Shown here: one piece after another, positions 493 through 26,469 of the stretch | How positions within the stretch are numbered: the stretch's first letter is position 1 | Layout of the letters: every line of letters starts with the position of its first letter | Virus record (IMG/VR): IMGVR_UViG_3300025413_000082 | Coordinates: 1 to 31,210 of that record | Source: a virus | DNA: 31,210 nt | Direction: 5' to 3' (one strand) | The notes under the pieces: model-generated | What the model saw: only the letters and a program-made list of their open reading frames with translations | The model's database searches: none | What the model was told of the DNA's origin: nothing | Translations under genes and position numbers: made by a program

Positions 493-863
493 ATTGCTCT
501 AGCGAAAAGAATTGCGTATTTGTCCACAGTTTTCATATCAAAATAAGTTTTATACACTTCTTCTATTTCCTCATCTGTTAGTGTCTTTGCTTTCAACGCC
601 TCTATTTCAGCTTGATGTAGTTTTATTGCTTCTTTGGCAAAAAGACATTCTTCATCCAAAAGAATATAACTTTCTTCTTCCATTATTAATTTTTCTTTCA
701 ACGCTTCTATTTCAGCTTGTTGCTGGCGTAGCATGGTGGCTGCTTGTTCTAATTGGTCAGCAAGTCTATCATTAGCACCTTCTTGTACGCTTTTACGACT
801 TGTTGCCTTTCTGCGAATTGACGCACGGATTTCCATTGCATCAGCTAGTTCATTTGCGTCCAT
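468..863 (-). CDS. Coiled-coil protein, paralogue 3
   Basis: A 131-residue, Glu/Lys/Gln-rich protein. It opens MDANELADAMEIRAS and has two related helical segments, MLRQQQAEIEALKEKL and LHQAEIEALKAK, so the coiled-coil unit itself looks duplicated inside the protein. The C-terminus ends in RKAQEK like its downstream neighbour. A GAGGTGAATA sequence just upstream supports the ATG at 863, and the gene overlaps the end of the gene at 850-1059 by 14 bp. Function is unknown; related small leucine/glutamine-rich proteins are common in environmental phages, but I cannot assign a role. Confidence 0.8.
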   Translation of the reverse strand: MDANELADAMEIRASIRRKATSRKSVQEGANDRLADQLEQAATMLRQQQAEIEALKEKLIMEEESYILLDEECLFAKEAIKLHQAEIEALKAKTLTDEEIEEVYKTYFDMKTVDKYAILFARAILRKAQEK

Positions 864-1473: not shown

Positions 1474-1609
1474 CTTGTGGTTTGCCATTAAGCGCAAACT
1501 GTGCGTACTGCCACGCTGTATCGCGGACCTCTGAGGGGCTTGCCCCTCTGGCAATGAGGCCCATGGTGGCCGCGCAGGCCAGTGTGAATAGTTGCTCTTC
1601 TTGTGTCAT
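1460..1609 (-). CDS. Short protein coupled to the primase gene
   Basis: A 49-residue reading frame starting MTQEEQLFTLACAATMGLIA and ending GKPQDEEV. Its ATG at 1609 overlaps the primase stop in a TAATG junction, the standard coupling signal in this operon, which is the main evidence that it is real. The middle is a hydrophobic Ala-rich helix that could be amphipathic or membrane-associated. It overlaps the next gene downstream by 14 bp. Function is unknown. Confidence 0.6.
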   Translation of the reverse strand: MTQEEQLFTLACAATMGLIARGASPSEVRDTAWQYAQFALNGKPQDEEV

Positions 1610-3918
1610 TAAAATATCTCTCCGTTGTCTAGTCTTTCAATACTGTCAATGTACCTCTGAGCCTTTGAGTTCAGTCGTACGCCCTTATAAATGTGCTGCC
1701 GCTGGCCACCGATGCGCGTGGAGTCCGATTCAACGTGGTGCTCCTGAATCGCCGCCAAGAATCTGCGCTTGAATGACAGCTCGTTGCCCGGCGTGATGCT
1801 CTTGTGCAGAGCCCAGCGCTTGTAGCACGCGAAGATGTCGTCCTTGTTCACGGTGTACTCGGGGCCAATCTCGAGCACGTCGTCGATGAACGAGCCGATC
1901 GGATTACCAAGTTCGCTCATCAGATCCAAGTACTCTCTGCCCGACTTAGGCTGGATAAAGTTGCCACCGCGTGCCAATCGTCTACGTTGCCCCTCGATCA
2001 CCCAGTTAAAGATGCCCGAGAGCTCTGACCTGAGCTTAGATGATAGCGAGGTGTCTTCGTTGTTGTAGAACGACTTGCTCATCTTTAGCACCAGCATGCG
2101 CCCAGTGAGCGCGTTGGAGTTCTCAGTCAGCTGGAGTACCTCGTTGCTGTACACGATTATTCGTGTGGGTAGGTATCCGTTCCATGACTCCTTGTTCTTT
2201 CTATTAACTGTAACAGTGTCGCCGCCAACAATTCTAAGGATTTGGCTAACAACAGCACTACGGTTACGCTCAGGGGCACGGGCGTCTGTGAAAGAAGCGA
2301 GTAGCTTACCCAGCCAAGGTTGCAGACCAAAAGTATCACACAATTCCTCCAGTTGTGGTGCCACTGTATTGTGTTGGCCTAGTAGGTCAACGAGCACCTT
2401 GTTAATAGTTCCCTTGCCGCTACGCCTAGGACCGATCACGTTCAAAAACTTCTGCTCTGAGGTGTCCCCTGAGAGTATGTAGCCAAAGTACTCCTGCAGT
2501 AGGTCCTTGCTCTCTTGGTCCTCGCCCCACACGTCGTCCAAGAACTTCATCCACTGTGGGCAGTCCTTAGTGGGGTCGTACTCGAACGGCAGTGAGTTGT
2601 ACGTGAAGAATCCCAGTGAGTGCGCAAACAGTACCAGCTGGTCCATCTGAAACAGTCCGTTGACCATGCTGATTAACTTCTCAGCTGGCGGGTTGGACTG
2701 CGCGTAACCGTCTAACCAAACTGGTGGCTTGGTGTTCGGGTCGTTGGCCAAGTGCACGATGGACTTGATCGCGTCAATCGCGGCGTTCACCACTGCAGGG
2801 TTGGCGTTGAACGGCACCAGCGCGCCCTTCTTGTCTAGCTTCTGACACTTGTCCAAGAACTTATACAGCTGGGAGCGCACCGTTGCCTCCTCGATGTTGG
2901 TGTAGTGCGTGCCGGTGTACACGAAGAACTCTTCGGCGTAGTGCACCAGCTTATAGCCATCTTCCACCGTGTACATCGATGACAAAAACTTCCTTGCGTG
3001 GTCTAGCGGGTTGGAGATCTCGAGCACGATCTCTCCGTTGGCCAGAGCCACCTGCAGCTTTTTTTGGTTCACCTTAAATATCAGGGAGCGCAACGTGATG
3101 CCCTGACCCTTAAAGCTGTTCCACTTCGTCGTGCATGAGTTGATGCCCGTCACGGTGTACTTGTTGGACTGCGCACTCCAGCGCTCCCACGCCTCTAGTG
3201 CCTCGACGTCCTTGTTAAACTGGTGGTGCAAAGCCATACCCACGTTCTTCCAGTCATCGTAGCCACAGTCAGGGTCCAGCTCTGAGAGTAGCTCCGTTTC
3301 AACGCGGAGCAAATCCCAGCCCTCGACTGGCGGCGTGTAGTTTGCAAAGTCGTCATCTGACTGGCGCATTGCCCGTGGTGGTACGTGCGCAGTGAGGTCC
3401 TGAGGCTCGTTGGGCACGTCGCCTGCAATCTTGTGCCCCGTCATGGTGAAGTAACGGCTCTTAGGATACACCTCCAGCCCGATGGTGTGGTCAACGTGGG
3501 CCGAGTGCAGGTCTGCGCGGGTGAATATCTTGATGCCAGTACCGCTTGGTGACACCTCAACGTAGCCCTTCACGTTGTCCATGATGGACTGTGCTAGGTC
3601 GTTTAGATCACCGCTCTCAGGATCACGGCAATCGTCAATGTCAATGCCAATGAGGTTATCATCCCCAGTAAAAACGAATCCAATACCGTCAAAATTACCA
3701 TTCTCGTATGCCTTCTGTGCCGTGAAAAAATCTGTCCAAGTTGCTGGGTTGGTTGATGAGGCAAACTTGCCAGTGCTCTGTACTGGGAGCTTGCTCCACT
3801 TTTGCGACTCACCGTCGCCGACTAGCGTGTACTTCCACAGGCAAAACCGTGGTATGCGCTTCAAGTCGCTCGGTATCGCATTAAAATCTACCTCTAATGC
3901 TGGCGGTTTTTGTAACAT
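1609..3918 (-). CDS. Bifunctional primase-polymerase / SF3 helicase (D5-like)
   Basis: This 769-residue replication protein should make primers and unwind DNA at the phage fork. An archaeo-eukaryotic-type PrimPol domain covers about residues 15-165: the acidic pair D93/D95 lies in GIDIDD, followed by SPSGTGIKI (123-131) and YPKSRYFTMTGH (151-162). A PriCT-2-like segment follows at about 200-283 (DWKNVGMALHH). The C-terminal half is a D5_N/SF3 helicase with Walker A GPRRSGKGT (496-504), a Walker-B-like region LLASFTDAR (539-547) and a sensor-like IIVYSNE (587-593). Its start has AGGAGAG just upstream. A copy of the GCGTATTAGT motif and an iteron module lie in its 5' region, so it heads a leftward transcription unit. 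Domain order and length fit phage and plasmid PrimPol-helicases. Confidence 0.95.
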   Translation of the reverse strand: MLQKPPALEVDFNAIPSDLKRIPRFCLWKYTLVGDGESQKWSKLPVQSTGKFASSTNPATWTDFFTAQKAYENGNFDGIGFVFTGDDNLIGIDIDDCRDPESGDLNDLAQSIMDNVKGYVEVSPSGTGIKIFTRADLHSAHVDHTIGLEVYPKSRYFTMTGHKIAGDVPNEPQDLTAHVPPRAMRQSDDDFANYTPPVEGWDLLRVETELLSELDPDCGYDDWKNVGMALHHQFNKDVEALEAWERWSAQSNKYTVTGINSCTTKWNSFKGQGITLRSLIFKVNQKKLQVALANGEIVLEISNPLDHARKFLSSMYTVEDGYKLVHYAEEFFVYTGTHYTNIEEATVRSQLYKFLDKCQKLDKKGALVPFNANPAVVNAAIDAIKSIVHLANDPNTKPPVWLDGYAQSNPPAEKLISMVNGLFQMDQLVLFAHSLGFFTYNSLPFEYDPTKDCPQWMKFLDDVWGEDQESKDLLQEYFGYILSGDTSEQKFLNVIGPRRSGKGTINKVLVDLLGQHNTVAPQLEELCDTFGLQPWLGKLLASFTDARAPERNRSAVVSQILRIVGGDTVTVNRKNKESWNGYLPTRIIVYSNEVLQLTENSNALTGRMLVLKMSKSFYNNEDTSLSSKLRSELSGIFNWVIEGQRRRLARGGNFIQPKSGREYLDLMSELGNPIGSFIDDVLEIGPEYTVNKDDIFACYKRWALHKSITPGNELSFKRRFLAAIQEHHVESDSTRIGGQRQHIYKGVRLNSKAQRYIDSIERLDNGEIF

Positions 3919-3931
3919 GACTCTCCTCTTT

Positions 3932-3951
3932 TCTTGCCCTTACTAATACGC
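3932..3951 (-). promoter_or_regulatory. Repeated promoter-like motif, copy 1 (leftward)
   Basis: On the minus strand it reads GCGTATTAGTAAGGGCAAGA. It lies 13 bases upstream of the primase ATG, pointing into that gene. It is the only leftward copy of six; the core GCGTATTAGT is identical in all. Confidence 0.7.
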
Positions 3952-3988
3952 AAATCGGCTGACCTGCGTTTCACATTATGAAATATTG

Positions 3989-4013
3989 AAAAATGCTGCA
4001 CTGCATCCTGGAT
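3989..4013. repeat. 25-bp repeat shared by the two intergenic regions, copy 1
   Basis: Identical to 11069-11093, in direct orientation 7.1 kb apart. It runs from AAAAATGCTGC to CATCCTGGAT and contains near-palindromic ATGC...GCAT. Both copies lie beside an iteron module. Confidence 0.95.
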
Positions 4014-4081: not shown

Positions 4082-4190
4082 ATCCACAGTATCCATAGTA
4101 TCCACCCTTTATTCAGGTTATTTTTTATTTTAAAAAAATAAAAAATAAATATCTGGAGTAAAAGTGAAAACTACTGTGGATACTGTGGAT
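4082..4190. repeat. Iteron module A: 9-bp repeats flanking an AT-rich core
   Basis: Three tandem 9-mers, ATCCACAGT (4082-4090), ATCCATAGT (4091-4099) and ATCCACCCT (4100-4108), face two inverted copies, ACTGTGGAT (4173-4181 and 4182-4190). The roughly 64 bp between them are almost pure A/T. The units resemble the DnaA box TTATCCACA. Positions 4167-4194 recur exactly, inverted, at 11158-11185. The layout suits a replication origin (iterons plus unwinding element) or a cooperative operator. Confidence 0.75.
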
Positions 4191-4333
4191 CGTACTCAAA
4201 ATATCTATTGGAATCAAGCACTTACCGTGCCACCCTTTGGCACCTGTATCCTGCCACTATCCTGCCACTTTTTAAAATCGGGCCATAGAGGCGTTTAAAA
4301 TGACTGGGTAAGGGGGTAGCCTCACATAGCCCT

Positions 4334-4353
4334 AAAAAACGCCTCTATGAGGC
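4334..4353 (-). terminator. Rho-independent terminator (leftward)
   Basis: On the minus strand the sequence is GCCTC-ATA-GAGGC followed by G and TTTTTT. The stem overlaps the end of the gene at 4353-4625, so it should end transcription from the upstream leftward operon before the primase unit. A wider inverted repeat (4284-4296 with 4337-4349, 13 bp perfect) could form a competing structure. Confidence 0.75.
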
Positions 4354-4625
4354 TATAAACAGACTATGGTGCCGATGCTGGTCTTCGTGCACCTGACAAT
4401 CGTGCCGTCAGGCATCTGCACAACCTGAGCCAGCGCACTGGCGATGTGAAAGCCAAAGTACAGAATAAACGCCACGATGGCAATCCAGCCATACTTATTC
4501 CAGCGGTGGTACTGGCGCTCACGCTCTAAAAAGATAAAGCGCTCGGGTTTGCCGTAGTCTAGCTCAATCCCCCTGCAGTCGCAAACACTGCGCCCTTGGT
4601 TACAATTTCCTGAGCACCCCTTCAT
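4353..4625 (-). CDS. Small single-span membrane protein with Cys-rich N-terminus
   Basis: A 90-residue protein. Its N-terminus MKGCSGNCNQGRSVCDC has four cysteines in 17 residues that could bind a metal or pair as disulfides. After a charged stretch (about 25-46) comes one hydrophobic helix, WIAIVAFILYFGFHIASALA (about 47-66), then a short tail with two cysteines. It starts at 4625 in an ATGA overlap with the upstream gene and is the last gene before the terminator. Function is unknown; a membrane role is inferred from the helix only. Confidence 0.75.
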   Translation of the reverse strand: MKGCSGNCNQGRSVCDCRGIELDYGKPERFIFLERERQYHRWNKYGWIAIVAFILYFGFHIASALAQVVQMPDGTIVRCTKTSIGTIVCL

Positions 4626-4819
4626 TTGTTCACCTCGTATCCTAAGTTGTCTTTAATAAATTTGTACGCCCACTTTCTAAACGCGATGCGGTTCTCGCTG
4701 GTCTGCTCCTCCCGCTCGTCCCACTTAGCCTCGACCAAGAAGTTACCCTCCAAGTCGTTGAACTCAATCGCGGTAATGTTGCCGTCCTTGTCATAAATAT
4801 CCGTTGGTATTGCTTTCAT
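4622..4819 (-). CDS. Small acidic hypothetical protein
   Basis: A 65-residue protein starting MKAIPTDIYDKDGNITAIEF and ending in a Trp/Lys-rich helix (RKWAYKFIKDNLGYEVNK). AAGGAGATAAC lies just before the ATG at 4819, and the start overlaps the stop of the upstream gene. No domain is recognisable. Confidence 0.8.
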   Translation of the reverse strand: MKAIPTDIYDKDGNITAIEFNDLEGNFLVEAKWDEREEQTSENRIAFRKWAYKFIKDNLGYEVNK

Positions 4820-5151
4820 GTTATCTCCTTAATTAGTGGTGACTTATCCTTCCATGAGTCGGTGTCACCGTAGTCACCCCTAATCATGCTCATGCGCTCC
4901 TCTTTTCTAAACGCTGGCTCGATGGCCCACCATGCTAGGCTGGCCTCCTTGTACTCGACCCACGCGTCATTTTCTAAAAACATGGGATGGTTGAGCCCAG
5001 CCACGTCCACGGTGCACACCACGTCACTGGTGGGTTGCCACCCCTTGGCGTTCTTCCTGCGGTACTGCCCCAGCGAGACGTTGTCTCGGGCGCGGATAAA
5101 GCGTACGTATGCGCGGGTCTGTTCGTCTGTTAATTTAATCATCGTGTTCAT
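4816..5151 (-). CDS. Hypothetical protein downstream of the sigma gene
   Basis: Up to 111 residues, starting MNTMIKLTDEQTRAYVRFIR. The ATG at 5151 lies inside the end of the sigma gene (17-bp overlap); the second ATG at 5142 is equally possible and slightly better spaced from an upstream GGA. The protein is Trp-rich (about 7 Trp) with no motif I recognise. It sits in an unbroken run of overlapping genes with the sigma factor, so the two are probably co-expressed. Confidence 0.75.
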   Translation of the reverse strand: MNTMIKLTDEQTRAYVRFIRARDNVSLGQYRRKNAKGWQPTSDVVCTVDVAGLNHPMFLENDAWVEYKEASLAWWAIEPAFRKEERMSMIRGDYGDTDSWKDKSPLIKEIT

Positions 5152-5698
5152 CTTCCATCTTGTCTAATTGTAGGGCGTCTAATGACGTTGGTTCTTGCAA
5201 CATATAAAACTTTAACTGGTTTACGCGCTTGGTTGTTTTCCCAAGCACCTTGGCCAGCTCCTGAACCGTTGGCGTTCGGCCTAGGGTCTGAGTCAGTGCA
5301 CGCTCGGTGTACGTCATCTTGCGTATCTCTTCGCGCACCTTAATCGGTATGCGAACTAGGTTCTCCTCGTCGTCCTGCCCACGCTCTACCCCACGCAGGA
5401 TAAACCGCTTGGCAAAGGTCGCGAACTTGGCGCCGTTCTTTGGCACCCACTGACGTGCCGCCTTGATGAGCGCCTCGTTGCCCATGCCAATCAAGTCCTC
5501 CTGAGGCGTGCGTGAGTGGTTCCACGCGGTCAGCTTGCGCACCGTGTACACCACAAAGCGCAGGTTGTGCGTCACTAGCCTGTCCAGTGCCTGCTCGTCA
5601 CCTTGCTGAATGCGACGTGACAGCTCGTACTCCTCTGCCGAGTCCAGCACTGGTATGCCGTACAGTGACTGCAGGTAGTCAGTTAAAAAGTCGTTCAT
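5135..5698 (-). CDS. Phage sigma-70-family factor lacking region 4
   Basis: A 187-residue sigma factor that should redirect host RNA polymerase to phage promoters. Region 1.2 is at about residues 2-34, region 2 at about 38-107 (HNLRFVVYTVRKL, DLIGMGNEALIKAARQW, KFATFAKRFILRG) and region 3 at about 113-173 (VRIPIKVREEIRK, GRTPTVQELAKVLG, KEP-like QEPTSLD). The protein then ends in an acidic tail, so region 4, which reads the -35 box, is absent. The Trp-Trp pair that melts the -10 element in E. coli sigma-70 aligns with Arg98-Phe99. I chose the ATG at 5698, in a TAATG overlap with the membrane-protein gene, because homology begins there; an extension to 5776 would run over that gene. Confidence 0.9.
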   Translation of the reverse strand: MNDFLTDYLQSLYGIPVLDSAEEYELSRRIQQGDEQALDRLVTHNLRFVVYTVRKLTAWNHSRTPQEDLIGMGNEALIKAARQWVPKNGAKFATFAKRFILRGVERGQDDEENLVRIPIKVREEIRKMTYTERALTQTLGRTPTVQELAKVLGKTTKRVNQLKFYMLQEPTSLDALQLDKMEDEHDD

Positions 5699-5952
5699 TA
5701 TGAGTCCATCCATATAAGAGTTGTTGCCACGGCCGCGGCTATTAGCAATGGCCACAGCTGTGGAAAGAAAAAACACAACACAATAAATCCAGCCAGTGCC
5801 ACCATGCCCCTATAACCTATCTTGGCAAACAACACTGGAAAGCCCTTGTAAGCCACGTAAAGCAGTTGTGCCGCGGCTATTAGTAACGATACTCCGACGA
5901 TAAATTGCACCTTGTGTCCTTTCGATGGTTTATGCCCGTGATGTCCGCTCAA
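5698..5952 (-). CDS. Small membrane protein, two or three helices
   Basis: An 84-residue protein with a His/Lys-rich start (MSGHHGHKPSKGHK), then hydrophobic helices at about 16-34, 49-63 and 66-80, so it is almost certainly in the membrane. The start is a TTG at 5952: AGGAGG lies seven bases before it, and no ATG comes until deep in the protein. It overlaps the upstream stop (TTGA) and the sigma start (TAATG). A holin is conceivable from size and helices, but its place among early genes gives no support for that. Confidence 0.75.
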   Translation of the reverse strand: MSGHHGHKPSKGHKVQFIVGVSLLIAAAQLLYVAYKGFPVLFAKIGYRGMVALAGFIVLCFFFPQLWPLLIAAAVATTLIWMDS

Positions 5953-6128
5953 AATGGTGCCTCCTGCAGTATGGCTACTGCGACTTGGTACGGGTTTGCT
6001 TTAGGCTCGCGCGGTAGTGTCACCAAGCTCATACCATTGGTTAGGTAGGGGGTAGCCTCCAGCTTTGATACAAACTTCCTGCAGGCCCCTCCAAACTCAT
6101 CCATGAGGACGTAACGATATTGGCTCAT
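5949..6128 (-). CDS. Small hypothetical protein
   Basis: A 59-residue protein, MSQYRYVLMDEFGGACRKFVSK... ending AILQEAPF. The ATG at 6128 overlaps the upstream stop (ATGA); a longer frame to 6194 lies wholly inside the upstream gene and is rejected. It has a compact alpha/beta look and no known motif. Confidence 0.75.
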   Translation of the reverse strand: MSQYRYVLMDEFGGACRKFVSKLEATPYLTNGMSLVTLPREPKANPYQVAVAILQEAPF

Positions 6129-6325
6129 GGTATGAATGCCTCGCGCTTGAGCTGGTTGCCCAGCTTGTCCTGCAAGTACATCACCACGTCCCACTCGCCG
6201 TCGTCGCGGCCGCGTGAGCGCTCCGCGTTGGTCAGCTTGTCAGCGTACCAGTAAAGCGCACGCTTGATAGCTAGGAACTCCTCCGCGTCGAGGTTTAACT
6301 CAAAGCGGTTAGTGTTGATCTTCAT
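6125..6325 (-). CDS. Small hypothetical protein
   Basis: A 66-residue protein starting MKINTNRFELNLDAEEFLAIKRALYWY. It has one long helix and a charged RSRGRDDGEWD segment, then a second helix. It is coupled by ATGA overlaps at both ends. Function is unknown. Confidence 0.8.
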   Translation of the reverse strand: MKINTNRFELNLDAEEFLAIKRALYWYADKLTNAERSRGRDDGEWDVVMYLQDKLGNQLKREAFIP

Positions 6326-6591
6326 GCTGACACCTTGCGCACGACGACTGCGTCCACTGCCTTAATTGCTGTGACCTTAGCCACAGTAGTCACGTCGCAA
6401 AACTCGCGAACTAATTTAGGGTCAATGCTGGCTCGGTCGTAGTGTTGCACCTCGGCAATGAAGTCCATTCCTTGGTACTTACCTACACCGCGAGCAATGA
6501 GCTCAGCCTTGAGCTTACGAGCTGTAGATTCGAGCTCAGCGATCTGCTGGTTAATGATTCCTAAGTCGTCGATCATGTTATCTGTAATCAA
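6322..6591 (-). CDS. Small helical hypothetical protein (TTG start)
   Basis: An 89-residue protein, MITDNMIDDLGIINQQIAEL..., with an N-terminal coiled-coil-like helix followed by YQGMDFIAEVQHYDRASID, a beta-rich segment seen in small phage proteins. I chose a TTG start at 6591 because AAGGAGA lies at the right distance; the first ATG (6576) is 22 bases from it. An extended -10 element (6620-6628) lies just upstream, so this gene may begin its own transcript. Confidence 0.75.
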   Translation of the reverse strand: MITDNMIDDLGIINQQIAELESTARKLKAELIARGVGKYQGMDFIAEVQHYDRASIDPKLVREFCDVTTVAKVTAIKAVDAVVVRKVSA

Positions 6592-6619
6592 TTTAATTCT
6601 CCTTTGTGTGTTTTCTAAA

Positions 6620-6628
6620 ATTATACCA
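6620..6628 (-). promoter_or_regulatory. Host-type promoter, extended -10
   Basis: The minus strand reads TGGTATAAT, a perfect extended -10 of the sigma-70 class, about 30 bases upstream of the TTG start at 6591. No good -35 is visible, which extended -10 promoters tolerate. Confidence 0.5.
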
Positions 6629-6866
6629 CGACTGATTCGTGCATTGTTTTGTTGATCTCGCGTATCAGGCTTGCGTCCTCAAACCACATAACGCGTGCGT
6701 ACGTCCTGCGTGTTGGCTTGCGCGGTGTGCTTTCAGGCGCGTCGCCTGTGTGCACGAACAACGCGAAGGCGTAGCACGCCAGCTTGTCAGTCGCGCACTT
6801 GGTTGCGTGCACGCACCCGTCGCACGGCATTGGCTCATTTAAAAACTTTCTCATTTTAAAGTTCAT
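6621..6866 (-). CDS. Cys-rich small protein, possible zinc binding
   Basis: An 81-residue protein starting MNFKMRKFLNEPMPCDGCVHATKC. Four cysteines in C-x2-C-x5-C-x6-C spacing (CDGC, TKC, ACYAF) suggest a small metal site. The ATG at 6866 is preceded by AGGAGTAATACT; an upstream ATG at 6887 falls inside the previous gene and lacks such a signal. The pattern CDxC...C...LACYAF recurs in many phage small proteins, but I know of no established function. Confidence 0.8.
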   Translation of the reverse strand: MNFKMRKFLNEPMPCDGCVHATKCATDKLACYAFALFVHTGDAPESTPRKPTRRTYARVMWFEDASLIREINKTMHESVVV

Positions 6867-6870
6867 AGTA

Positions 6871-7065
6871 TTACTCCTGATTATCAAGTTGTTCTAGGTC
6901 TTCCTGCCACCATGCCATCACGGTGCATATATCGCTCCACTCTGCGTCGTACTGGGGATCTTGACCCTCAGGTATGCAGTCCTCGCGATACGCCTCTAGG
7001 GCACGCCAAATCGCGCCAAATTGGCTGTCTCTGTCATTACTGGTTACTGGTTTAAATGTCGCCAT
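6871..7065 (-). CDS. Small acidic hypothetical protein
   Basis: A 64-residue protein, MATFKPVTSNDRDSQFGAIW..., strongly acidic with five Trp. CAGGAGATCAAG precedes the ATG at 7065, and the gene overlaps the upstream one by 14 bp. Function is unknown. Confidence 0.75.
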   Translation of the reverse strand: MATFKPVTSNDRDSQFGAIWRALEAYREDCIPEGQDPQYDAEWSDICTVMAWWQEDLEQLDNQE

Positions 7066-7252
7066 CTTGATCTCCTGTGTCCCAATTGCTTACTGCCACA
7101 AATACCTGCTGGATGTCGCACTTTGGAAACTTCTCACGCGCGATACTTACAGCCTCATGCGCGTCCTGCGCCCAAAATTGATGCCAGTCATAGTGGCGTG
7201 GCTCTTCGTGTGTTGCCAGTTCAATTGCAAATACTTTAGTCTCGTAGCTCAT
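7052..7252 (-). CDS. Small hypothetical protein
   Basis: A 66-residue protein, MSYETKVFAIELATHEEPRH... with WAQDAHEAVSIAREKFP, a segment resembling small phage proteins that handle an 'A.EA...A...FP' helix. GAGGAGTAACACC precedes the ATG at 7252. A longer frame to 7405 covers a better-supported upstream gene in another frame and is rejected. Confidence 0.75.
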   Translation of the reverse strand: MSYETKVFAIELATHEEPRHYDWHQFWAQDAHEAVSIAREKFPKCDIQQVFVAVSNWDTGDQDGDI

Positions 7253-7256
7253 GGTG

Positions 7257-7409
7257 TTACTCCTCATCAAATTCAAAGTTAATAGTTTGCTTGCAGTGCA
7301 GGCACTGCTCCACATATATGATGCCGTTGTCACTGACCGCCTCAGTCTGAGCCCCATCGTATGGGCAGGTGAACGGAGCGTCAGCGTCCGCGATAAACAC
7401 GTCAATCAT
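7257..7409 (-). CDS. Zinc-ribbon-like mini protein
   Basis: A 50-residue protein, MIDVFIADADAPFTCPYDGA... ending CLHCKQTINFEFDEE. The cysteines sit as a single Cys in TCPYDG and a C-x2-C (CLHC), close to a small zinc ribbon with one ligand unclear. The ATG at 7409 overlaps the upstream stop (ATGA), and the stop lies just before the downstream gene's ribosome binding site, so it fills an otherwise empty gap in the operon exactly. Function is unknown. Confidence 0.7.
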   Translation of the reverse strand: MIDVFIADADAPFTCPYDGAQTEAVSDNGIIYVEQCLHCKQTINFEFDEE

Positions 7410-7684
7410 TTTGGTCCTTTCTTGCTTTCTCTGAGCACGCGTAGATCTTCGCGATACTGCTCCTTGTTCTCTTCGTACTGGCGACGTGTCATCTCTACGC
7501 CACGCTCACCACTGATTGTAGTCGGATCGGGTCGGCACACTAAAATCATGTCGTCAGGTGACTCGACTGGTACCTCGTACACTGGCTCCCATGGCACGTC
7601 AGGTGCGCTGGGTTGTTTGGACCAAGTCCGTGACACGTAGCGTGCCTCGTCACGTGCCCTACAAATTGCGTTAAGTGATCTCAT
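7406..7684 (-). CDS. Hypothetical protein
   Basis: A 92-residue protein, MRSLNAICRARDEARYVSRT..., ending in a charged helix (RRQYEENKEQYREDLRVLRESKKGPK). GGGAGGCTTAAC precedes the ATG at 7684. The middle is Pro/Val-rich (VPWEPVYEVPVESPDD). No domain is recognised. Confidence 0.75.
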   Translation of the reverse strand: MRSLNAICRARDEARYVSRTWSKQPSAPDVPWEPVYEVPVESPDDMILVCRPDPTTISGERGVEMTRRQYEENKEQYREDLRVLRESKKGPK

Positions 7685-7685
7685 G

Positions 7686-7937
7686 TTAAGCCTCCCATAC
7701 AGTTAGCTGGGCAGGGTTCTGCCATTCAGCGAATAAATTATACTTGCGCAGTGTCTCAGTAATCACTGGTGACACGCCGAACTCCCAGTCAGGGATCATG
7801 TGCCCGTCATAGTAGTCACAGAAGTCGTGACCGTCCTCAGCACTAATCCAAAAATTAGGCTGGTCGTCGTGGTACTCACGTACCGCTACGCCTTGTTTTT
7901 TGAGCGCGTTGAACGCGTTGCGAAAAGCTCTTTTCAT
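7686..7937 (-). CDS. Hypothetical protein
   Basis: An 83-residue protein, MKRAFRNAFNALKKQGVAVR..., with a basic helix followed by an aromatic/acidic alpha-beta region (DFCDYYDGHMIPDWEFGV). The start overlaps the upstream stop (ATGA). It resembles small phage proteins of unknown role; I see no catalytic motif. Confidence 0.8.
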   Translation of the reverse strand: MKRAFRNAFNALKKQGVAVREYHDDQPNFWISAEDGHDFCDYYDGHMIPDWEFGVSPVITETLRKYNLFAEWQNPAQLTVWEA

Positions 7938-8161
7938 ACTGCCTCCTGTTTCAGAAATAAATTATATAAACCATCTTTGACCTGAGCCAAAGTGTTGCGT
8001 ACTACATTGGCTGAGCTCGAGAGCTCGACAGCCAACTCACTATCACCACGCGCATTGGCGCAGTCTGCGAGCTCAGTGAGCTCTTTAATATGCGCTCTGA
8101 GCGCATTTTCCATCAACAACGCTTGGCGTTGTGTCAGGAATATATCAAAACCTTTTACCAT
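7934..8161 (-). CDS. Small helical protein
   Basis: A 75-residue, almost entirely helical protein, MVKGFDIFLTQRQALLMENA..., ending LYNLFLKQEAV. TAGGAGGATGT gives a strong ribosome binding site before the ATG at 8161. Function is unknown. Confidence 0.8.
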   Translation of the reverse strand: MVKGFDIFLTQRQALLMENALRAHIKELTELADCANARGDSELAVELSSSANVVRNTLAQVKDGLYNLFLKQEAV

Positions 8162-8169
8162 ACATCCTC

Positions 8170-8472
8170 CTATTTGATATGAATAAATTTAAAGTGGTCT
8201 TTAATAAACTTATTAGTATGCGCAATAGCCTGCTTGCGGATCTCGTTGAGCTCCTTGGCGATGTTGTCACCGCTCAGCTCCTTGATCCAGCCACGACCGT
8301 ACCACTGCTCGTGGTTAGGGTGGTAGTCCAGCTCGATGCAGTTCTCACCCCACGTGATGCAGAACGACTTGCCACCCTGCTTTAGGTACTCAGCAAGCGT
8401 GCGCATGATGACTGCACGTGATGGCTTGCGCTTGTTGAACTCGATGTCAATTACTGGGAATAGTTGGCTCAT
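8170..8472 (-). CDS. Hypothetical protein
   Basis: A 100-residue protein, MSQLFPVIDIEFNKRKPSRA... with GGKSFCITWGENCIELDYH and a C-terminal basic helix. The ATG at 8472 is preceded by ACGGAGATTTT and, about 30 bases upstream, by a TATAAT element (8499-8504), so this gene may start a secondary transcript. Function is unknown. Confidence 0.8.
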   Translation of the reverse strand: MSQLFPVIDIEFNKRKPSRAVIMRTLAEYLKQGGKSFCITWGENCIELDYHPNHEQWYGRGWIKELSGDNIAKELNEIRKQAIAHTNKFIKDHFKFIHIK

Positions 8473-8498
8473 AAAATCTCCGTTGTGTTGATGTGTCT

Positions 8499-8504
8499 AT
8501 TATA
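8499..8504 (-). promoter_or_regulatory. Candidate -10 element in the leftward operon
   Basis: A perfect TATAAT on the minus strand in the 45-bp gap before the gene at 8170-8472. No TTGACA-like -35 is seen; its place is taken by a 15-bp dyad (8516-8530). Confidence 0.45.
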
Positions 8505-8515
8505 CTGGGTCACTG

Positions 8516-8530
8516 GCTCACTGAGTGAGC
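8516..8530. repeat. 15-bp dyad GCTCACT-G-AGTGAGC
   Basis: Perfect 7-bp arms around one central base. It overlaps the stop codon of the gene at 8518-8913 and covers the -35 position relative to the TATAAT at 8499-8504. It could be an operator or, less likely without a T-run, a weak terminator. Confidence 0.5.
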
Positions 8531-8913
8531 TCGTATGGTTTATCCCAGTCGCCTACGTTCAGGTGAAAGTAGTACGCGGTGTCAAAGTAGTCCACCTGCG
8601 CGTCCGACTTGTCATAGTAGTCCGCGCTCTTAAGCGCGTCAATGATCTCACCGATCACGCGCTGAGGGCGGTGTGTGAAGTGATCTTCGTACCAGTACGG
8701 GTTCACTTGGATGTGGTTGCGTACGTGCAAGTCAAAGTCTTTGCCAGTGGTCTGCTTGAAGTTCTCCATGAAGTCCACTGGGCCACTGCGTAGGGTGCAG
8801 GTGATGCTCATGTGATCCTGCACGCGCAGGCTGTACTTGATGCCCAGTGGTTTGAGCACCTTGTCTAGGTTAGCCTTGATGATCTTCTTCTTGTCTTGGT
8901 TCATGTATGCCAT
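8518..8913 (-). CDS. Hypothetical protein
   Basis: A 131-residue protein, MAYMNQDKKKIIKANLDKVL... with a beta-rich core (YSLRVQDHMSITCTLRSG), then VNPYWYEDHF and a Tyr/Asp-rich C-terminus (ADYYDKSDAQVDYFDTAYYFH). The core loosely recalls polyvalent-protein-associated domains found on phages and plasmids, but that is a weak impression. TAAGGAGCTACACC supports the ATG at 8913. Confidence 0.8.
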   Translation of the reverse strand: MAYMNQDKKKIIKANLDKVLKPLGIKYSLRVQDHMSITCTLRSGPVDFMENFKQTTGKDFDLHVRNHIQVNPYWYEDHFTHRPQRVIGEIIDALKSADYYDKSDAQVDYFDTAYYFHLNVGDWDKPYELTQ

Positions 8914-8924
8914 GGTGTAGCTCC

Positions 8925-9056
8925 TTATTGGTTATGGTGTAGTTCGTCCATCAGCATGGCCCACTCAATCTCTGCGTCGGTCTGCTCAAGCTCGTCAACG
9001 CCGTAGCGTCTCTCTAGCTCTTCAAGTACTTCGGATAGTGGTAGATCTTTGGTCAT
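8925..9056 (-). CDS. Short acidic protein
   Basis: A 43-residue reading frame, MTKDLPLSEVLEELERRYGV... ending MLMDELHHNQ. Its ATG at 9056 overlaps the upstream stop (ATGA) with GAGGAGCTAAC before it, and its stop lies just ahead of the next ribosome binding site. The helical, Glu/Leu-rich composition is protein-like. Function is unknown. Confidence 0.7.
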   Translation of the reverse strand: MTKDLPLSEVLEELERRYGVDELEQTDAEIEWAMLMDELHHNQ

Positions 9057-9229
9057 GTTAGCTCCTCAAGTTTATGTAGTACATCAGTATAGCCGTCGTT
9101 ACGTTGCAGGACGCCGTCCTTGGCGCGTTTAGTAGCTTGGCGTAGGTTGTTGTCAGTGAACTCCCAGTAATGCGTCACAGCCCCGTCTATGGGGTCTGTG
9201 TACGTTGCTCTGTATCGTTTGTTGGTCAT
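9053..9229 (-). CDS. Short hypothetical protein
   Basis: A 58-residue reading frame, MTNKRYRATYTDPIDGAVTH... ending LHKLEELT. AAGGAGGCAAC precedes the ATG at 9229 and the stop overlaps the next start. It has a beta-strand-like first half and a helix. Function is unknown. Confidence 0.7.
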   Translation of the reverse strand: MTNKRYRATYTDPIDGAVTHYWEFTDNNLRQATKRAKDGVLQRNDGYTDVLHKLEELT

Positions 9230-9238
9230 GTTGCCTCC

Positions 9239-9883
9239 TTATGCGGTTTGTAAAGTGCGCCAAGAGCGCGGTGACATCCAAGATTTTAACACCCTGCCAG
9301 TACTCTCTTGCGTGTAGTTGAACCACAAGCGCTGTCCGTCTTGCTGTACTGCTGTCATCACTAACCCCTTGGCGTTGACGCGCTTGTCACCAGCCTGAAT
9401 GCGCTCGGCTGGTACTGGCTTAGCTACTACTGCCAGCTCAGTGCCGTGCACCTTGTCAGCCAGTGCGCTCATCATCTTAGCGAAGTCTTCACCAGCCTTA
9501 GCACGGTACGTCATCAGGTAAGCCTCATGCTTACGAATGTCTTGTTGGCGATACTCAGGCGCATCGGCAAACAATGCCACTTCTGCTACGCGCTTGCCGT
9601 CTACCATCTTCATGTAGCCAGTCTTGTACTCGACTGGGTCGTGCATGCCTGCCAGTGTCTCTTCTGCCTTGATGCGCAGGTCGTGGGCTTGTTTTAATAC
9701 ATCAGCGATCATGCTGTCAGTCTCAGTACGACGCTTTTCAAGCGGTGCGTAGCGGTGACCTTGACATACGCCTTGGAACCAGCCGTTAGCTACTGTGTAG
9801 CCGTGAGCTGAGATGCCGCCGCGTACTGCCTGCTGACGTCCACAGCACTGGCAGTGACCGCGTGTTTGAGTTGATGTTGCCAT
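9239..9883 (-). CDS. Hypothetical protein with Cys cluster
   Basis: A 214-residue protein. The N-terminus holds C-x-C-C (HCQCCGR, about 10-16) and a further Cys-x-x-His (VCQGH, about 39-43), a possible zinc site. A helical middle (about 53-150) and a beta-rich C-terminus ending SWMSPRSWRTLQ follow. AAGGAGCTATCACC precedes the ATG at 9883. It is the largest of the unknown early genes and lies near the head of the leftward operon, where host-takeover genes are common; no function can be assigned. Confidence 0.8.
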   Translation of the reverse strand: MATSTQTRGHCQCCGRQQAVRGGISAHGYTVANGWFQGVCQGHRYAPLEKRRTETDSMIADVLKQAHDLRIKAEETLAGMHDPVEYKTGYMKMVDGKRVAEVALFADAPEYRQQDIRKHEAYLMTYRAKAGEDFAKMMSALADKVHGTELAVVAKPVPAERIQAGDKRVNAKGLVMTAVQQDGQRLWFNYTQESTGRVLKSWMSPRSWRTLQTA

Positions 9884-9958
9884 GGTGATAGCTCCTTTAG
9901 TTAATTGATCTCATCAGTACCAGCCTAACTGGTAGACAGCCGTGAGGCTGTTTCGATC

Positions 9959-10108
9959 TTAATATCCAGCATCCCACTGGCATCCGTTGTCAATCCATCG
10001 TGCCTCGTCTTTGGCAGTTTGATAGAGCTCATCTTGCCAGTCGTCATAACCTTGGCAATCTTCTGCGTTATCAAACTCTGTACCGTCTTTGGCGATGTAT
10101 TTAGTCAT
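9959..10108 (-). CDS. Short protein, first gene of the leftward operon
   Basis: A 49-residue reading frame, MTKYIAKDGTEFDNAEDCQG... ending GCQWDAGY, preceded by TAGGAGAATCACT. It is acidic and Trp/Tyr-rich; the opening KYIAKDGTEF is like other tiny phage early proteins. Between its stop and the next gene (9884-9958) lies a leader with a CAGCC-GTGA-GGCTG hairpin (9938-9951). Function is unknown. Confidence 0.7.
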   Translation of the reverse strand: MTKYIAKDGTEFDNAEDCQGYDDWQDELYQTAKDEARWIDNGCQWDAGY

Positions 10109-10143
10109 AGTGATTCTCCTATTGATTGGTTAGTACTGCCTCG

Positions 10144-10168
10144 AGAGCACTGCATTGCAATGCGCTCT
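10144..10168. repeat. Inverted repeat with GCATTGCAATGC palindrome
   Basis: The perfect 12-bp palindrome GCATTGCAATGC (10152-10163) is bracketed by AGAGC (10144-10148) and GCTCT (10164-10168). It lies about 40 bp upstream of the first leftward gene, a natural operator position. Confidence 0.65.
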
Positions 10169-10427
10169 GAGCACTACTATCTGCCAGCTGTTGGGACACC
10201 CTACCCCGCTGGTACTTCTTTAGAGCTCCATCCACTGTCTAGGCGGAGCTCACAGGCACCTATGCACCTGATCTGCCACACGTTTTACAAGGCTGGTACT
10301 TAGTCACCTTGCACTGGTAACGCCAGTGAGTCGATCGCTCGGCTAGTGGGCTCTTCGCTTAGTTACTGCATGACACGCTGAACTGTGGCACCGCTCCTAA
10401 TCACCTGACTGCCTTACAACAGACTCC

Positions 10428-10433
10428 ATTATA
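10428..10433 (-). promoter_or_regulatory. Candidate early leftward promoter (-10)
   Basis: A perfect TATAAT on the minus strand (GACTATAATGG), facing the leftward operon. No clear -35 lies 16-18 bp upstream, so strength is uncertain. It would give a leader of about 310 bases before the first gene. Confidence 0.45.
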
Positions 10434-10900
10434 GTCACAGATATACGCATTTTGATTCCACGATGTGAAATAATTCGGAGTGTGCACTAACATAATTTGG
10501 TCACTGGAAAACGGACAGCTAACCCCCGTGGTTACTGGAATACTAGAGATCTCAGAGAGTTGAGGGGTAAGTATCACCTGATAGCGATCGCGTCTCTATG
10601 GCCCGATTAGGGGCATTGCTGGGGATTCGCTATCGGGCAATATCGCCACCTCACGTCCACCCACCCTCTCAGGCTCTCGCGTGCGCGTACCACTCAGCCA
10701 CACCACCACACTGCACCACCGCGCCCACTCCACCACCCCACCAGCCTGCCGTCCCTAGCACACTGCCAGCTCAGCGTCAAGCAATACCCATACTGCCAGT
10801 GTGGTTATTAGCTGGGCCAGCACGCTGGGGCCCGCGTCCACTCTGTCCCCATTACTAGCAGTCAGGGTGGGTGAGTGCCAGCGTGGGGCGCGAGGGGCTG

Positions 10901-10932
10901 TTCCACATTGTGAGATGGCGTTCCGCATTGTG
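10901..10932. repeat. Two 12-bp direct repeats, 20-bp period
   Basis: TTCCACATTGTG (10901-10912) and TTCCGCATTGTG (10921-10932) differ at one base and are spaced by two helical turns. That is typical of a paired regulator-binding site, though no promoter is evident beside them. Confidence 0.55.
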
Positions 10933-11068
10933 GTGGCCCTCCTTTGTGGCGCAGGGTCCCCTTTTTGCCAAGTCGACACCCCGTGAGCAGGTACCCAGGG
11001 GGCCGGGCGGAGGCCCCAGGTCAAAGCTCAAGTTTGTATAATTTTTTATTATTTTTTGTTATATAGAC

Positions 11069-11093
11069 AAAAATGCTGCACTGCATCCTGGAT
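11069..11093. repeat. 25-bp repeat shared by the two intergenic regions, copy 2
   Basis: Identical to 3989-4013. Here it is directly preceded by GTTATATAGAC, an element repeated at 11286 and 11318. Confidence 0.95.
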
Positions 11094-11157
11094 ATTTGCC
11101 AGGGTACAATTTTGTATGGTGGCACGATAACCCGTTGATTTTAAAGAACATTATACT

Positions 11158-11271
11158 TACGATCCACAGTATCCACAGTAGTTTTACTTTTTTTTATTTT
11201 TTTTTAAAAAAGATAAAAAGATATATAGGGTAATAGTCGTTTAGACCCTGGATACTATGGATACTGTGGAT
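11158..11271. repeat. Iteron module B: inverted copy of module A
   Basis: Two 9-mers ATCCACAGT (11162-11170, 11171-11179), an A/T core rich in T and A runs, then ACCCTGGAT (11245-11253), ACTATGGAT (11254-11262) and ACTGTGGAT (11263-11271). Its reverse complement reproduces module A unit for unit, including the variant middle unit ATCCATAGT. Positions 11158-11185 match 4167-4194 exactly in inverted orientation. Confidence 0.75.
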
Positions 11272-11280
11272 AGTGATTAC

Positions 11281-11329
11281 TTTTAGTTATATAGACCGGC
11301 CGTTAATATGATTTTTAGTTATATAGGCC
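11281..11329 (+). repeat. TTTTAGTTATATAGRCC repeats
   Basis: Two copies, TTTTAGTTATATAGACC (11281-11297) and TTTTAGTTATATAGGCC (11313-11329), lie 32 bp apart, about three helical turns. A shorter third copy, GTTATATAGAC, starts near 11059, and TTGTATAGACC lies in region A on the minus strand. They stand just upstream of the promoter-like motif at 11345. Confidence 0.6.
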
Positions 11330-11344
11330 AAAATGCAGCATTGT

Positions 11345-11364
11345 GCGTATTAGTAGGAGTATGA
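11345..11364 (+). promoter_or_regulatory. Repeated promoter-like motif, copy 2
   Basis: Reads GCGTATTAGTAGGAGTATGA. The ATG of the next gene begins 16 bases after the motif's first base, so a transcript from it would have almost no leader. Confidence 0.7.
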
Positions 11365-11669
11365 ACAAGTACGTTTACCAAATCCAAGGCGCACTGGAAG
11401 ACAGCAACCAAAACCTACTAGGGTTACGAGTGCTGGTGTGTGACCTGCACAATTTTGATTCAGTAGACGTACCAATTGAGGTTTTAGATAAAGAGACAGC
11501 TAAGTACTTAGCTTTTCGTCTAAAACTAACAGACGGCGCCTTGGTTATCCAAAAACTACCCAATGGCGTCATTAACAAAATTAGACTGCTATTAGGCAAA
11601 TACCTAGATAAGTGGGTATTGGAAAACTTTCATGGCAATATTGGCAACACAAAAGGTGTTAACCCTTGA
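11361..11669 (+). CDS. First late-block gene, unknown
   Basis: A 102-residue protein, MNKYVYQIQGALEDSNQNLL..., with alternating strands and a C-terminal helix (INKIRLLLGKYLDKWVLENF). I chose the ATG at 11361; a GTG at 11343 would add six residues encoded by the repeated motif itself, which is unlikely. AGGAG lies only one base before this ATG, too close for normal use. Lying where a small terminase often sits, it could be one, but nothing in the sequence (no helix-turn-helix) shows that. Confidence 0.65.
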   Translation: MNKYVYQIQGALEDSNQNLLGLRVLVCDLHNFDSVDVPIEVLDKETAKYLAFRLKLTDGALVIQKLPNGVINKIRLLLGKYLDKWVLENFHGNIGNTKGVNP

Positions 11670-12624
11670 CTATTGGAAAATAGCGCAGGACATCAGACCG
11701 GGTGACATTGTATTTGACAGACTGGGCCGCAAGGTCCGGGTAAAGCTCGTCCACCCCCTGGACAAACGCGCATGTTACCGAGTCACGTTCCTAGATGGAA
11801 CCTCAGTGGCTGGGGATAAAGACCTCAAATTGCCAATTGAAACGCCAAAGTACCGCAAAAGGACTTGGGAATACAAAGGCAAATTCCAATTTCGCAGGCC
11901 GCTATCCAATCTCTCCCTTGGAACGCTGTCTGAAATGGAACTGATTAACAAGCACGGTAGGCTTATGTACAGCGTACCGACCGCTGGACCGTTAGAACTG
12001 CCCCATAAAGACCTGCCAGTGCCGCCGTTTGTGTTTGGGTTGTGGTTTTTCTCTAAAAGAAAAGACGGAACCATAAAAATTCCAGAGAAACACTTTGATT
12101 TTATTGTGGAAAAACTAAAAGACTACGGCTATATACCAACATCTTGGCGTGATCCCATCAAAAAACGCCGGGTGTACAGCACAAAGCCAACTGTCATGTC
12201 GCACTTGGCGCCCAATGTGCCATACAAAATCCCAAACAACTACCTGTTAGCCAGCCCAGAGCAACGTCTTGAGCTGCTTAGTGGGATTATGTATGGAAAA
12301 CCAAATCAATATAACCAAAAGTTAGATAGATTTCAGTTTAGCTCCAAACATTTACCAACAGTCAAACAAATTCAGTACCTTGCTGAGACGCTTGGCTGTA
12401 AAACTTTACTTGAGGGACCCAATCCATTATCAGGATACACGGTCTACATCAAAACAAAATTAAAACTCATGGAACATCAGACCCCAGCGCCAATCAAAGT
12501 GCGACAAAACTGGAGAATGATTACCAAAATTGAAGAAATTACACCACAGGCGTGCGTTCACATCGAATTAGATGGCGACGATAGCACGATGTTGGTAGAA
12601 GAAGGATTTATTGCATGCCTTTAA
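11632..12624 (+). CDS. Free-standing Hint/intein-like protein, catalytically degenerate
   Basis: A 330-residue protein that looks like an intein without exteins. Residues 8-67 follow an intein N-terminus (VLTLDYWKIAQDIRPGDIVF, then CYRVTFLDG), and 308-330 match the C-terminal blocks (CVHIEL...LVEEGFIACL). Residues expected for splicing are missing: no Cys/Ser at the start of block A (ATQKV), no block-B His (VAGDKDLKL), and ACL-stop in place of His-Asn. The middle has two LAGLIDADG-like positions, FVFGLWFFSKRKDG (133-146) and RLELLSGIMYGKPN (212-225), both lacking the catalytic acidic residue. It ends inside the start of the terminase gene (10-bp overlap). Its role is unknown; a relic or domesticated intein acting as a structural or regulatory partner of terminase is inference. 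Confidence 0.75.
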   Translation: MAILATQKVLTLDYWKIAQDIRPGDIVFDRLGRKVRVKLVHPLDKRACYRVTFLDGTSVAGDKDLKLPIETPKYRKRTWEYKGKFQFRRPLSNLSLGTLSEMELINKHGRLMYSVPTAGPLELPHKDLPVPPFVFGLWFFSKRKDGTIKIPEKHFDFIVEKLKDYGYIPTSWRDPIKKRRVYSTKPTVMSHLAPNVPYKIPNNYLLASPEQRLELLSGIMYGKPNQYNQKLDRFQFSSKHLPTVKQIQYLAETLGCKTLLEGPNPLSGYTVYIKTKLKLMEHQTPAPIKVRQNWRMITKIEEITPQACVHIELDGDDSTMLVEEGFIACL

Positions 12625-26300: not shown

Positions 26301-26469
26301 CGGTACAGTAACAACGACTGTAGTAGCGGCAGATGTAGGCGCAGCAACTTGGACAGTAACCGCCACAGCAGATACAACTAATGGTGGATTAGCAATAACA
26401 GTAACAGGACAGGCTTCTACAACAATTCGTTGGGTTGCCAAAGCCGAAACCGCAGAGATGACATTCTAA
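23395..26469 (+). CDS. Tail fibre with Gly-X-Ser collagen-like shafts and a YadA-like head
   Basis: A 1024-residue host-recognition fibre. Residues 1-75 (MADQSITQLPIATALTGDEQ...) look like an attachment domain. Two shafts of Gly-X-Ser triplets (about 77-242 and 298-456; X is mostly Tyr, Ile, Thr, Phe, Trp or Val) resemble collagen triplets without proline. Between them is a small Trp-containing domain (INIKGTVATPADLPPTGNQV, then LYVWSGTSWNNVGEIVG) often seen in phage fibres. Residues about 595-870 carry repeats like IAGGYSNSLYG and VGGGNNQATGAYSFIGGG, matching the left-handed beta-roll of trimeric autotransporter heads. The C-terminal domain is Thr/Val-rich. The shaft contains a 96-bp exact internal duplication. 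No strong ribosome binding site precedes the ATG, four bases after the previous stop. Confidence 0.85.
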   Translation: MADQSITQLPIATALTGDEQVPVVQRGVTKQASVSQIANAASPGKLITNIIYNPTNGDLVIYYSDGSTEVVGPVSGSSGYSGLSGYSGISGYSGISGYSGISGYSGKSGFSGISGFSGYSGSGVSGYSGSGISGYSGYSGISGYSGISGYSSFSGYSGVSGYSGYSGISGLSGISGYSGTSGWSGISGYSGTSGWSGTSGYSGYSGYSGISGWSGISGYSGYSGTSGWSGFSGFSGYSGISGQQGTSINIKGTVATPADLPPTGNQVNDAYIVSSNGDLYVWSGTSWNNVGEIVGPPGTSGYSGYSGIGTSGYSGYSGYSGVSGWSGISGWSGYSGYSGASGISGYSGTSGYSGTSGYSGTSGYSGYSGTSGYSGTSGYSGYSGVSGWSGISGWSGYSGYSGASGISGYSSFSGYSGISGYSGAIGPSGYSGVSGYSGISGYSGVSGYSGYSGYSGIQAPIGGTNTQIQYNNAGVLGGVPLLTYNGTTLAMTGSTIDSATIGGTTPAAGTFTTLGSTSTASLGTASTTYVQVIGDASYPGIYATGGTNTPLVLQPLGTGALQAQKTTSSATGGNARGANAVDWQTLRNIAAQVAAQTSSVIAGGQNNGVNGSSGTVSGGSGNQVSGAFSTIAGGYSNSLYGQTSVIVGGHLNGTTTQTGFLNFIGGGELNTGTLIAAVTTQATSTITSGSTAVTLSATNAAIKVGQLVTGTPIQSGTGSLPYTYVAAISGTSLTLSQNATSSTNATLSFYTPHGVVVGGGNNQATGAYSFIGGGGDAGTAANRNVASGDYATVVGGKANQATGESAFVGGGGSISGTVYINTASGAASSIVGGLQNTANQIGAFVGGGFNNLANGVYSSIMGGTYGSARSIVGNMVFPATRQPFGAGASAVAQSALLVLGRQTTDATATVLCSDSNAASGTNQVILPNNSAYYFKVRVIAGVTGAGNTKAWTLEGAIKRGAGVGTTAIVGTVTTTVVAADVGAATWTVTATADTTNGGLAITVTGQASTTIRWVAKAETAEMTF
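23623..24120 (+). repeat. Gly-X-Ser coding repeats, shaft 1
   Basis: About 166 residues of G-X-S triplets. Synonymous codons vary freely (TATAGTGGC, TACAGCGGT), so most of the order is kept at protein level. Confidence 0.9.
24336..24431 (+). repeat. 96-bp exact duplication, copy 1
   Basis: Identical to 24525-24620; offset 189 bp, which is 63 codons and so frame-preserving. Confidence 0.85.
24525..24620 (+). repeat. 96-bp exact duplication, copy 2
   Basis: Identical to 24336-24431, although the surrounding triplets are degenerate at DNA level; a recent duplication or gene-conversion event. Confidence 0.85.

Follow-up and report, generated by a model that had tools for sequence, protein, structure and literature searches.

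Paired iteron modules as candidate replication origins of a freshwater phage, and covariation of their units with a predicted winged-helix domain of its primase-helicase

Why does a phage genome carry the same array of short repeats at two places, in inverted orientation, and which protein reads it? The question is raised by a 31,210-base virus record from IMG/VR (IMGVR_UViG_3300025413_000082), a freshwater phage sequence that is called the window here, meaning the whole stretch. An earlier note on this DNA had described two modules, A and B, of 9-bp units around an A/T core, and had proposed that they form a twin origin, perhaps with host DnaA as a binder, or a switch shared by replication and late transcription. 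The evidence assembled here is comparative throughout and makes it likely that A and B are origin modules of the iteron/unwinding-element/iteron type, bound by the C-terminal domain of the phage primase-helicase. The twin origin stands as the best reading of the sequences, with the primase-helicase as putative binder and the ori and crr sites of P4 as the parallel; the DnaA part is not supported.

Two inverted iteron modules

4082..4190, unstranded: module A, inverted 9-bp iteron arrays flanking an A/T core, upstream of the primase gene
4082..4104, + strand: primase-side array of A, with ATCCACAGT, ATCCATAGT and ATCCA (two full units and one partial)
4105..4172, unstranded: A/T-rich core of A, candidate unwinding element, with an inner gap of ~62 bp by unit scoring
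4173..4190, - strand: opposite array of A, 2 x ATCCACAGT
11162..11271, unstranded: module B, with the architecture of A, at the junction of leftward early genes and rightward late genes
11162..11179, + strand: 2 x ATCCACAGT of B
11180..11248, unstranded: A/T-rich core of B, candidate unwinding element
11249..11271, - strand: late-gene-side array of B, with ATCCACAGT, ATCCATAGT and ATCCA

Read directly along the strand, A consists of ATCCACAGT, ATCCATAGT and ATCCA(CCC), then the core, then ACTGTGGAT ACTGTGGAT (3 + 2 units, the third partial), and B of ATCCACAGT ATCCACAGT, the core and then TGGAT ACTATGGAT ACTGTGGAT (2 + 3). In both, tandem 9-bp units are directed inward onto the A/T core, and the two modules lie 7.1 kb apart. 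They are real features of the sequence: inverted arms around an A/T core occur in exactly two modules in the window, and no comparable module arose in 100 dinucleotide shuffles. The 14-mer ATCCACAGTATCCA has four occurrences, all confined to A and B (reversed control, 0), and ATCCACAGT with at most one mismatch gave 19 matches against 7.3 +/- 2.9 expected, a count that none of 100 shuffles attained. The inverted identity of 28 bp between 4167-4194 and 11158-11185, noted earlier, is exact on direct reading. The mirror-image placement of A and B relative to their genes, also described earlier, holds in the window and fails as a general rule, as in relatives the larger array lies on either side of either module.

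Other repeats surround the modules. A direct repeat ending in AAAATGCTGCACTGCATCCTGGAT, at 3976-4013 and 11056-11093, shows 84% identity over 38 bp and has the same orientation near both modules, whereas A and B are mutually inverted. Repeats of TTTTAGTTATATAG lie around module B (11048-11069, 11276-11297 and 11308-11329); similar strings adjoin modules in several relatives and are possibly promoter elements.

Conserved architecture and diverse units

Relatives were collected in four scans with primase queries, which gave 127 distinct loci (window included) after removal of repeats, and modules were sought by scanning for inverted arms around an A/T core and then for period-9 arrays. Usable unit arrays were present in 91 of the 127 loci; the contigs are mostly fragments, so a missing module carries little weight. 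The inner gap has a median of 66 bp and is nearly always 58-80 bp, with two to three units per side and array sizes that often differ between the two sides. A single register accommodates all units, with the consensus GNNNNRGTW and about 26 effective types. Close relatives retain ATCCACAGT, and distant ones retain the design with other 9-mers, among them GTCACAGTA, GTACTAGTA, GTCACACTT, GCTAGGGTT, GTATGGGTA and GCGGGGGTT. A primase identical to that of the window is also encoded in an 80-kb record, which has matches at two places only. The earlier note had suggested looking for the module in related genomes, and there the architecture is strongly conserved, though the unit sequence is not.

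This diversity bears on the host initiator. The consensus DnaA box of E. coli is TTATCCACA, and GTATCCACA of the window agrees with it at eight of nine positions, as would be expected if the units were DnaA boxes at which the host protein opens the phage origin. However, only TCCACAGTA-type units resemble the box; relatives keep the architecture with GTACTAGTA, GCTAGGGTT or GCGGGGGTT, and the unit sequence follows the phage primase, to which the covariation described below points. We regard DnaA binding as highly improbable.

Exactly two modules, spaced 5.1-9.6 kb apart, were present in 27 non-redundant genomes. Within such a genome, the units of one module agreed with those of the other at 8.06 of 9 positions, while re-pairing modules between genomes lowered the mean agreement to 4.94, with a maximum of 6.05 in 10,000 permutations. 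The simplest cause of this match is one trans-acting reader that serves both sites. Module B, the one farther from the primase gene, lies at a flip of the coding strand in 18 of the 24 relatives with enough flanking sequence.

Two other explanations meet their main difficulties here. Inverted arrays necessarily have arms that are complementary to each other across the core, and these could form a DNA or RNA hairpin, in which case the changes between phages would be compensatory base-pair changes. The tandem 9-bp period speaks against this, and a hairpin alone leaves unexplained the often unequal arrays, the unit match across 5-10 kb and the tracking of protein residues, which gives it a very low probability. 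Least likely of all is that 4082-11271 is a mobile or invertible segment with A and B as its terminal inverted repeats. The two are indeed inverted copies in this genome, but many diverged genomes carry the module pair on either side of phage early genes, in varying relative orientation, and none of the genes examined between the modules was recognised as coding for a transposase or recombinase.

A primase-helicase whose C-terminal wing covaries with the unit

1609..3918, - strand: primase-helicase of 769 aa, proposed initiator (PriCT_2, D5_N, DUF5906; NCBIfam P4-family primase C-terminal domain)
1672..1902, - strand: predicted winged helix at the C-terminus of the primase (residues 673-749), proposed to bind the units from its predicted fold and covariation
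1750..1782, - strand: recognition helix, residues 713-723, of which residue 714 varies together with positions 7 and 9 of the unit
1672..1731, - strand: two wing strands, residues 730-749, in which residues 733, 735 and 742 covary with unit bases

The candidate reader is encoded next to module A. Residues 416-707 of the primase match TIGR01613 ('primase, P4 family', NCBIfam) with 153.8 bits against a cut-off of 108.7, and the remainder of the protein matches the NrS-1 primase and D5-type primase-helicases. AlphaFold2, run with 55 relatives, places a C-terminal helix at 713-723, followed by strands at 730-736 and 739-749, and the same helix and strands were obtained when the isolated domain was predicted alone. 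The best PDB match of the predicted domain is the RFX DNA-binding domain (E about 5e-4); it came from the predicted fold alone, as a search of the domain sequence against the PDB returned nothing significant. Residues 673-749 are thus predicted to form an RFX-like winged-helix domain. RFX1 contacts the major groove with its wing and the minor groove with its helix (PMC4212688), and the concentration of covarying residues in the phage wing is consistent with this arrangement.

Covariation was measured by partial Mantel tests on 75 non-redundant primases, comparing unit distance with the distance in 15-residue windows after removal of overall divergence (residues 1-600). A single peak was found at residues 721-745 (r 0.45), and the rest of the profile was flat, below 0.2. 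The window 731-745 reached r = 0.45 against a permutation maximum of 0.14, and the top windows were all C-terminal. With 37 phylogenetically independent pairs, the window 729-743 again ranked first (r 0.54), by a smaller margin over the N-terminal maximum of 0.45. For eight other shared phage proteins, including the sigma factor and the products of 4622 and 4816, the best 15-aa window did not exceed 0.18, against 0.41-0.48 for the primase wing in the same genomes.

The last comparison also bears on the most serious rival, in which the units are operators of a phage regulator (the sigma factor, for instance, or one of the small early proteins) that switches early and late transcription, so that A and B would be control regions of promoters and not origins. 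The position of A upstream of the primase gene and of B at the divergent early/late junction would suit such a role, as would the promoter-like motif GCGTATTAGT downstream of both modules. Nevertheless, none of the eight shared proteins, the sigma factor among them, covaries with the units, whereas the primase wing does, and an A/T core between two arrays is an origin design. We therefore consider operators of a separate regulator unlikely; the primase itself may have a dual role as autoregulator.

Further support for recognition of the units by the primase C-terminal domain comes with limits, and several observations weigh against it. In pairs with over 25% divergence, unit distance correlates with differences at residues 714/733/735/742 at r 0.41, a value that is somewhat flattering since the four residues were picked on the same data; entropy-matched column sets gave 0.01 +/- 0.06, with a maximum of 0.23, and 0 of 2000 reached it. 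The window 713-745 gives 0.36 against a maximum of 0.17 among all 33-residue windows of residues 1-640, a comparison with less selection bias in which the region was nonetheless also known beforehand. Per-column parsimony co-change is weak, with residues 701-746 supplying three of the top ten columns (p about 0.03), and it is because this enrichment is only modest that independent pairs and entropy-matched nulls were used. No recognisable module lies directly upstream of the primase in L018, L020, L027, L078, L150, L151 and L181, where it may be elsewhere, degenerate or lost. GC skew is uninformative as an origin marker, since it tracks gene direction. Finally, hhalign detected no similarity between the phage C-terminal domain and the C-terminus of the P4 alpha protein, so that homology between them is undetectable by sequence.

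In held-out loci with a module, the units were as expected from the nearest wing in L098, L029, L162, L170 and L047, and approximately so in L159, L095 and L208. These loci cannot separate the wing from the whole protein, because the nearest wing and the nearest protein usually coincide.

Residues and bases

Individual residues go with particular bases. Phenylalanine or methionine at 714 is mostly found with C at unit position 7, and glutamine with G; leucine at 733 goes with GT at unit positions 1-2 in 25 of 25 cases and serine with TC in 8 of 9, while asparagine at 742 is mostly found with GCA or GCG. There are exceptions, such as L714 with C7 in three genomes. Similar pairs of residue code and unit recur in well-separated lineages: Q733 and N742 with GCAAGGGT in L139 and L079 (67% identity over residues 1-620), V733 and N742 with GC(A/G)GGGGT in L077 and L052/L145 (66%), K733 with GTCCG in L017 and L189 (72%), and S733 with TCC in the window clade, L160 and L188 (63-67%).

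A tentative extension, which we hold to be possible and somewhat short of probable, is that origin and initiator form an evolvable lock and key, in which lineages repeatedly switch specificity through interchangeable residues 714, 733, 735 and 742 of an RFX-like wing and rewrite the arrays at both sites.

Proposed mechanism

We infer that the winged-helix domain reads each 9-bp unit, relying mainly on wing strands 730-749 and on residue 714, where the recognition helix starts, and that the primase-helicase, after binding to the arrays, melts the A/T core and loads there. The A/T stretch of 60-70 bp would be the unwinding element between two to three iterons per side. Arrays on both sides would place two oppositely facing helicase rings on the melted core; two rings and bidirectional forks are suggested because the two arrays face inward. 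A and B probably act together, or as a main origin and a helper, since P4 carries one repeat at both ori and crr. Binding at A may also limit transcription of the primase, a possible autoregulation because A sits just upstream of its gene. A shared switch linking replication and late transcription, the other proposal of the earlier note, is possible by position, as in most relatives B sits where early and late genes diverge.

The promoter-like motif and neighbouring genes

3942..3951, - strand: GCGTATTAGT, promoter-like element preceding the primase gene
11345..11354, + strand: GCGTATTAGT, promoter-like element preceding the first late gene
5135..5776, - strand: sigma-70-like factor (regions 1.2, 2 and 3), candidate reader of GCGTATTAGT and not of the iterons

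The motif GCGTATTAGT, which had been noticed after both modules, is present at these two places and has six exact copies in the window (3942, 11345, 14081, 17300, 21232 and 26773), mostly shortly upstream of genes. It is separate from the iteron module, because it lies upstream of several genes that have no module. Across 75 genomes, GCGTATTAGW has 42 copies against 4 in the reversed control, and 76% of copies have an open-frame start codon within 60 bases, against 26% of random positions. The motif is frequent within the clade of the window and scarce outside it; 9 of 75 genomes have a copy upstream of the primase. It is probably a promoter element of short-leader phage genes, and a reasonable guess is that it is read by the phage sigma factor. 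The latter has homologues in 70 of 74 relatives and gave no region-4 match above the cut-off.

The gene at 4622-4819 (-) encodes a 65-aa protein with no family match, which is nearly as widespread as the primase (homologues in 72 of 74 relatives). Just before the terminase, 11632-12624 (+) encodes a 330-aa protein with PHROG matches to terminase and helicase-loader families and none in Pfam or NCBIfam; on visual inspection, its ends are reminiscent of an intein-type domain. Long collagen-like SGYSG repeats are present in two proteins (23395-26469 and 29469-30986), which are probably tail or fibre components. Within 218-613, short stretches are 94% identical to Bacteriophage sp. ctz7E20 (MW202753.1), in otherwise unrelated DNA; a small gene has perhaps been exchanged recently. 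Primase relatives also occur in two contigs of uncultured betaproteobacterial metagenome-assembled genomes (L208 and L209), possibly misbinned phage, which is only suggestive of a betaproteobacterial host group.

Implications

The specificity of phage initiators for their origins has so far been known from few models. Dozens of naturally matched pairs within one protein family and one architecture allow residues to be linked to bases, so that the recognition code of a D5/P4-family initiator becomes directly testable and origins could be predicted in unculturable metagenomic phages. The iteron/A-T/iteron design would also be extended beyond satellites. The fast diversification of the units raises the question of its cause, for example the exclusion of competitors or parasites. 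If the lock and key is true, replication of co-infecting relatives or satellites would be mutually exclusive, and the code would be readable, with origins predictable from protein sequence.

Comparison with known systems

The phage system resembles both P4 and the phage-inducible chromosomal islands (PICI), including the Staphylococcus aureus pathogenicity islands (SaPI), yet it lacks defining features of each: the position of the origin and the N-terminal primase type differ, and there is no Pox_D5 match. Our literature search found no report on the origins of this phage group among the papers it covered.

In P4, the alpha protein is a fused primase-helicase of the same helicase family as the phage primase (BLASTP E 4e-19, residues 407-642). 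One repeat type occurs at two sites about 5 kb apart, crr and ori in the record annotation, much as A and B share one unit, and its copies are arranged partly as inverted pairs with 9-bp spacing (in crr, 4314+, 4323+ / 4366-, 4384-). The P4 ori separates leftward early genes from rightward late ones, as does module B. In P4, both sites are required in cis, and looping and copy control involve ori and crr. The differences concern protein, placement and lifestyle. The N-terminus of alpha is a zinc ribbon with Toprim, which is absent from the phage primase, whose N-terminal half is of PrimPol type (closest to the NrS-1 primase), and Pox_D5 (PF03288) has no match at the phage C-terminus at E up to 1, although the predicted fold is still a winged helix. 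The P4 crr is downstream of alpha, whereas A precedes the primase gene; among the phage relatives the unit diversifies; and P4 is a satellite, whereas the phage has its own capsid and packaging genes.

The solved primase-helicase nearest in sequence to the phage primase is 7OLA, which we take to be SaPI5 Rep. In PICI and SaPI, as in A and B, two iteron sets flank an A/T-rich region, but their origin directly follows the 3' end of the initiator gene and the elements are satellites, whereas the phage module is upstream of the primase and present twice. The helicases of SaPI and of the staphylococcal cassette SCCmec recognise iterons through their C-terminal domain (PMC7581432). For geminiviruses, conserved iteron positions with diverse sequences that are paired with the cognate Rep have been described (PMC12548392); that Rep is a rolling-circle initiator, unrelated in protein and origin type, so the likeness is by analogy only. 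Iteron sets around an A/T stretch have been taken to mark PICI origins and to be common to no other known replicon (PMC6092414). The contig studied here carries terminase, portal and capsid genes, and the PICI-type iteron/A-T/iteron design appears to be common to these phages too.

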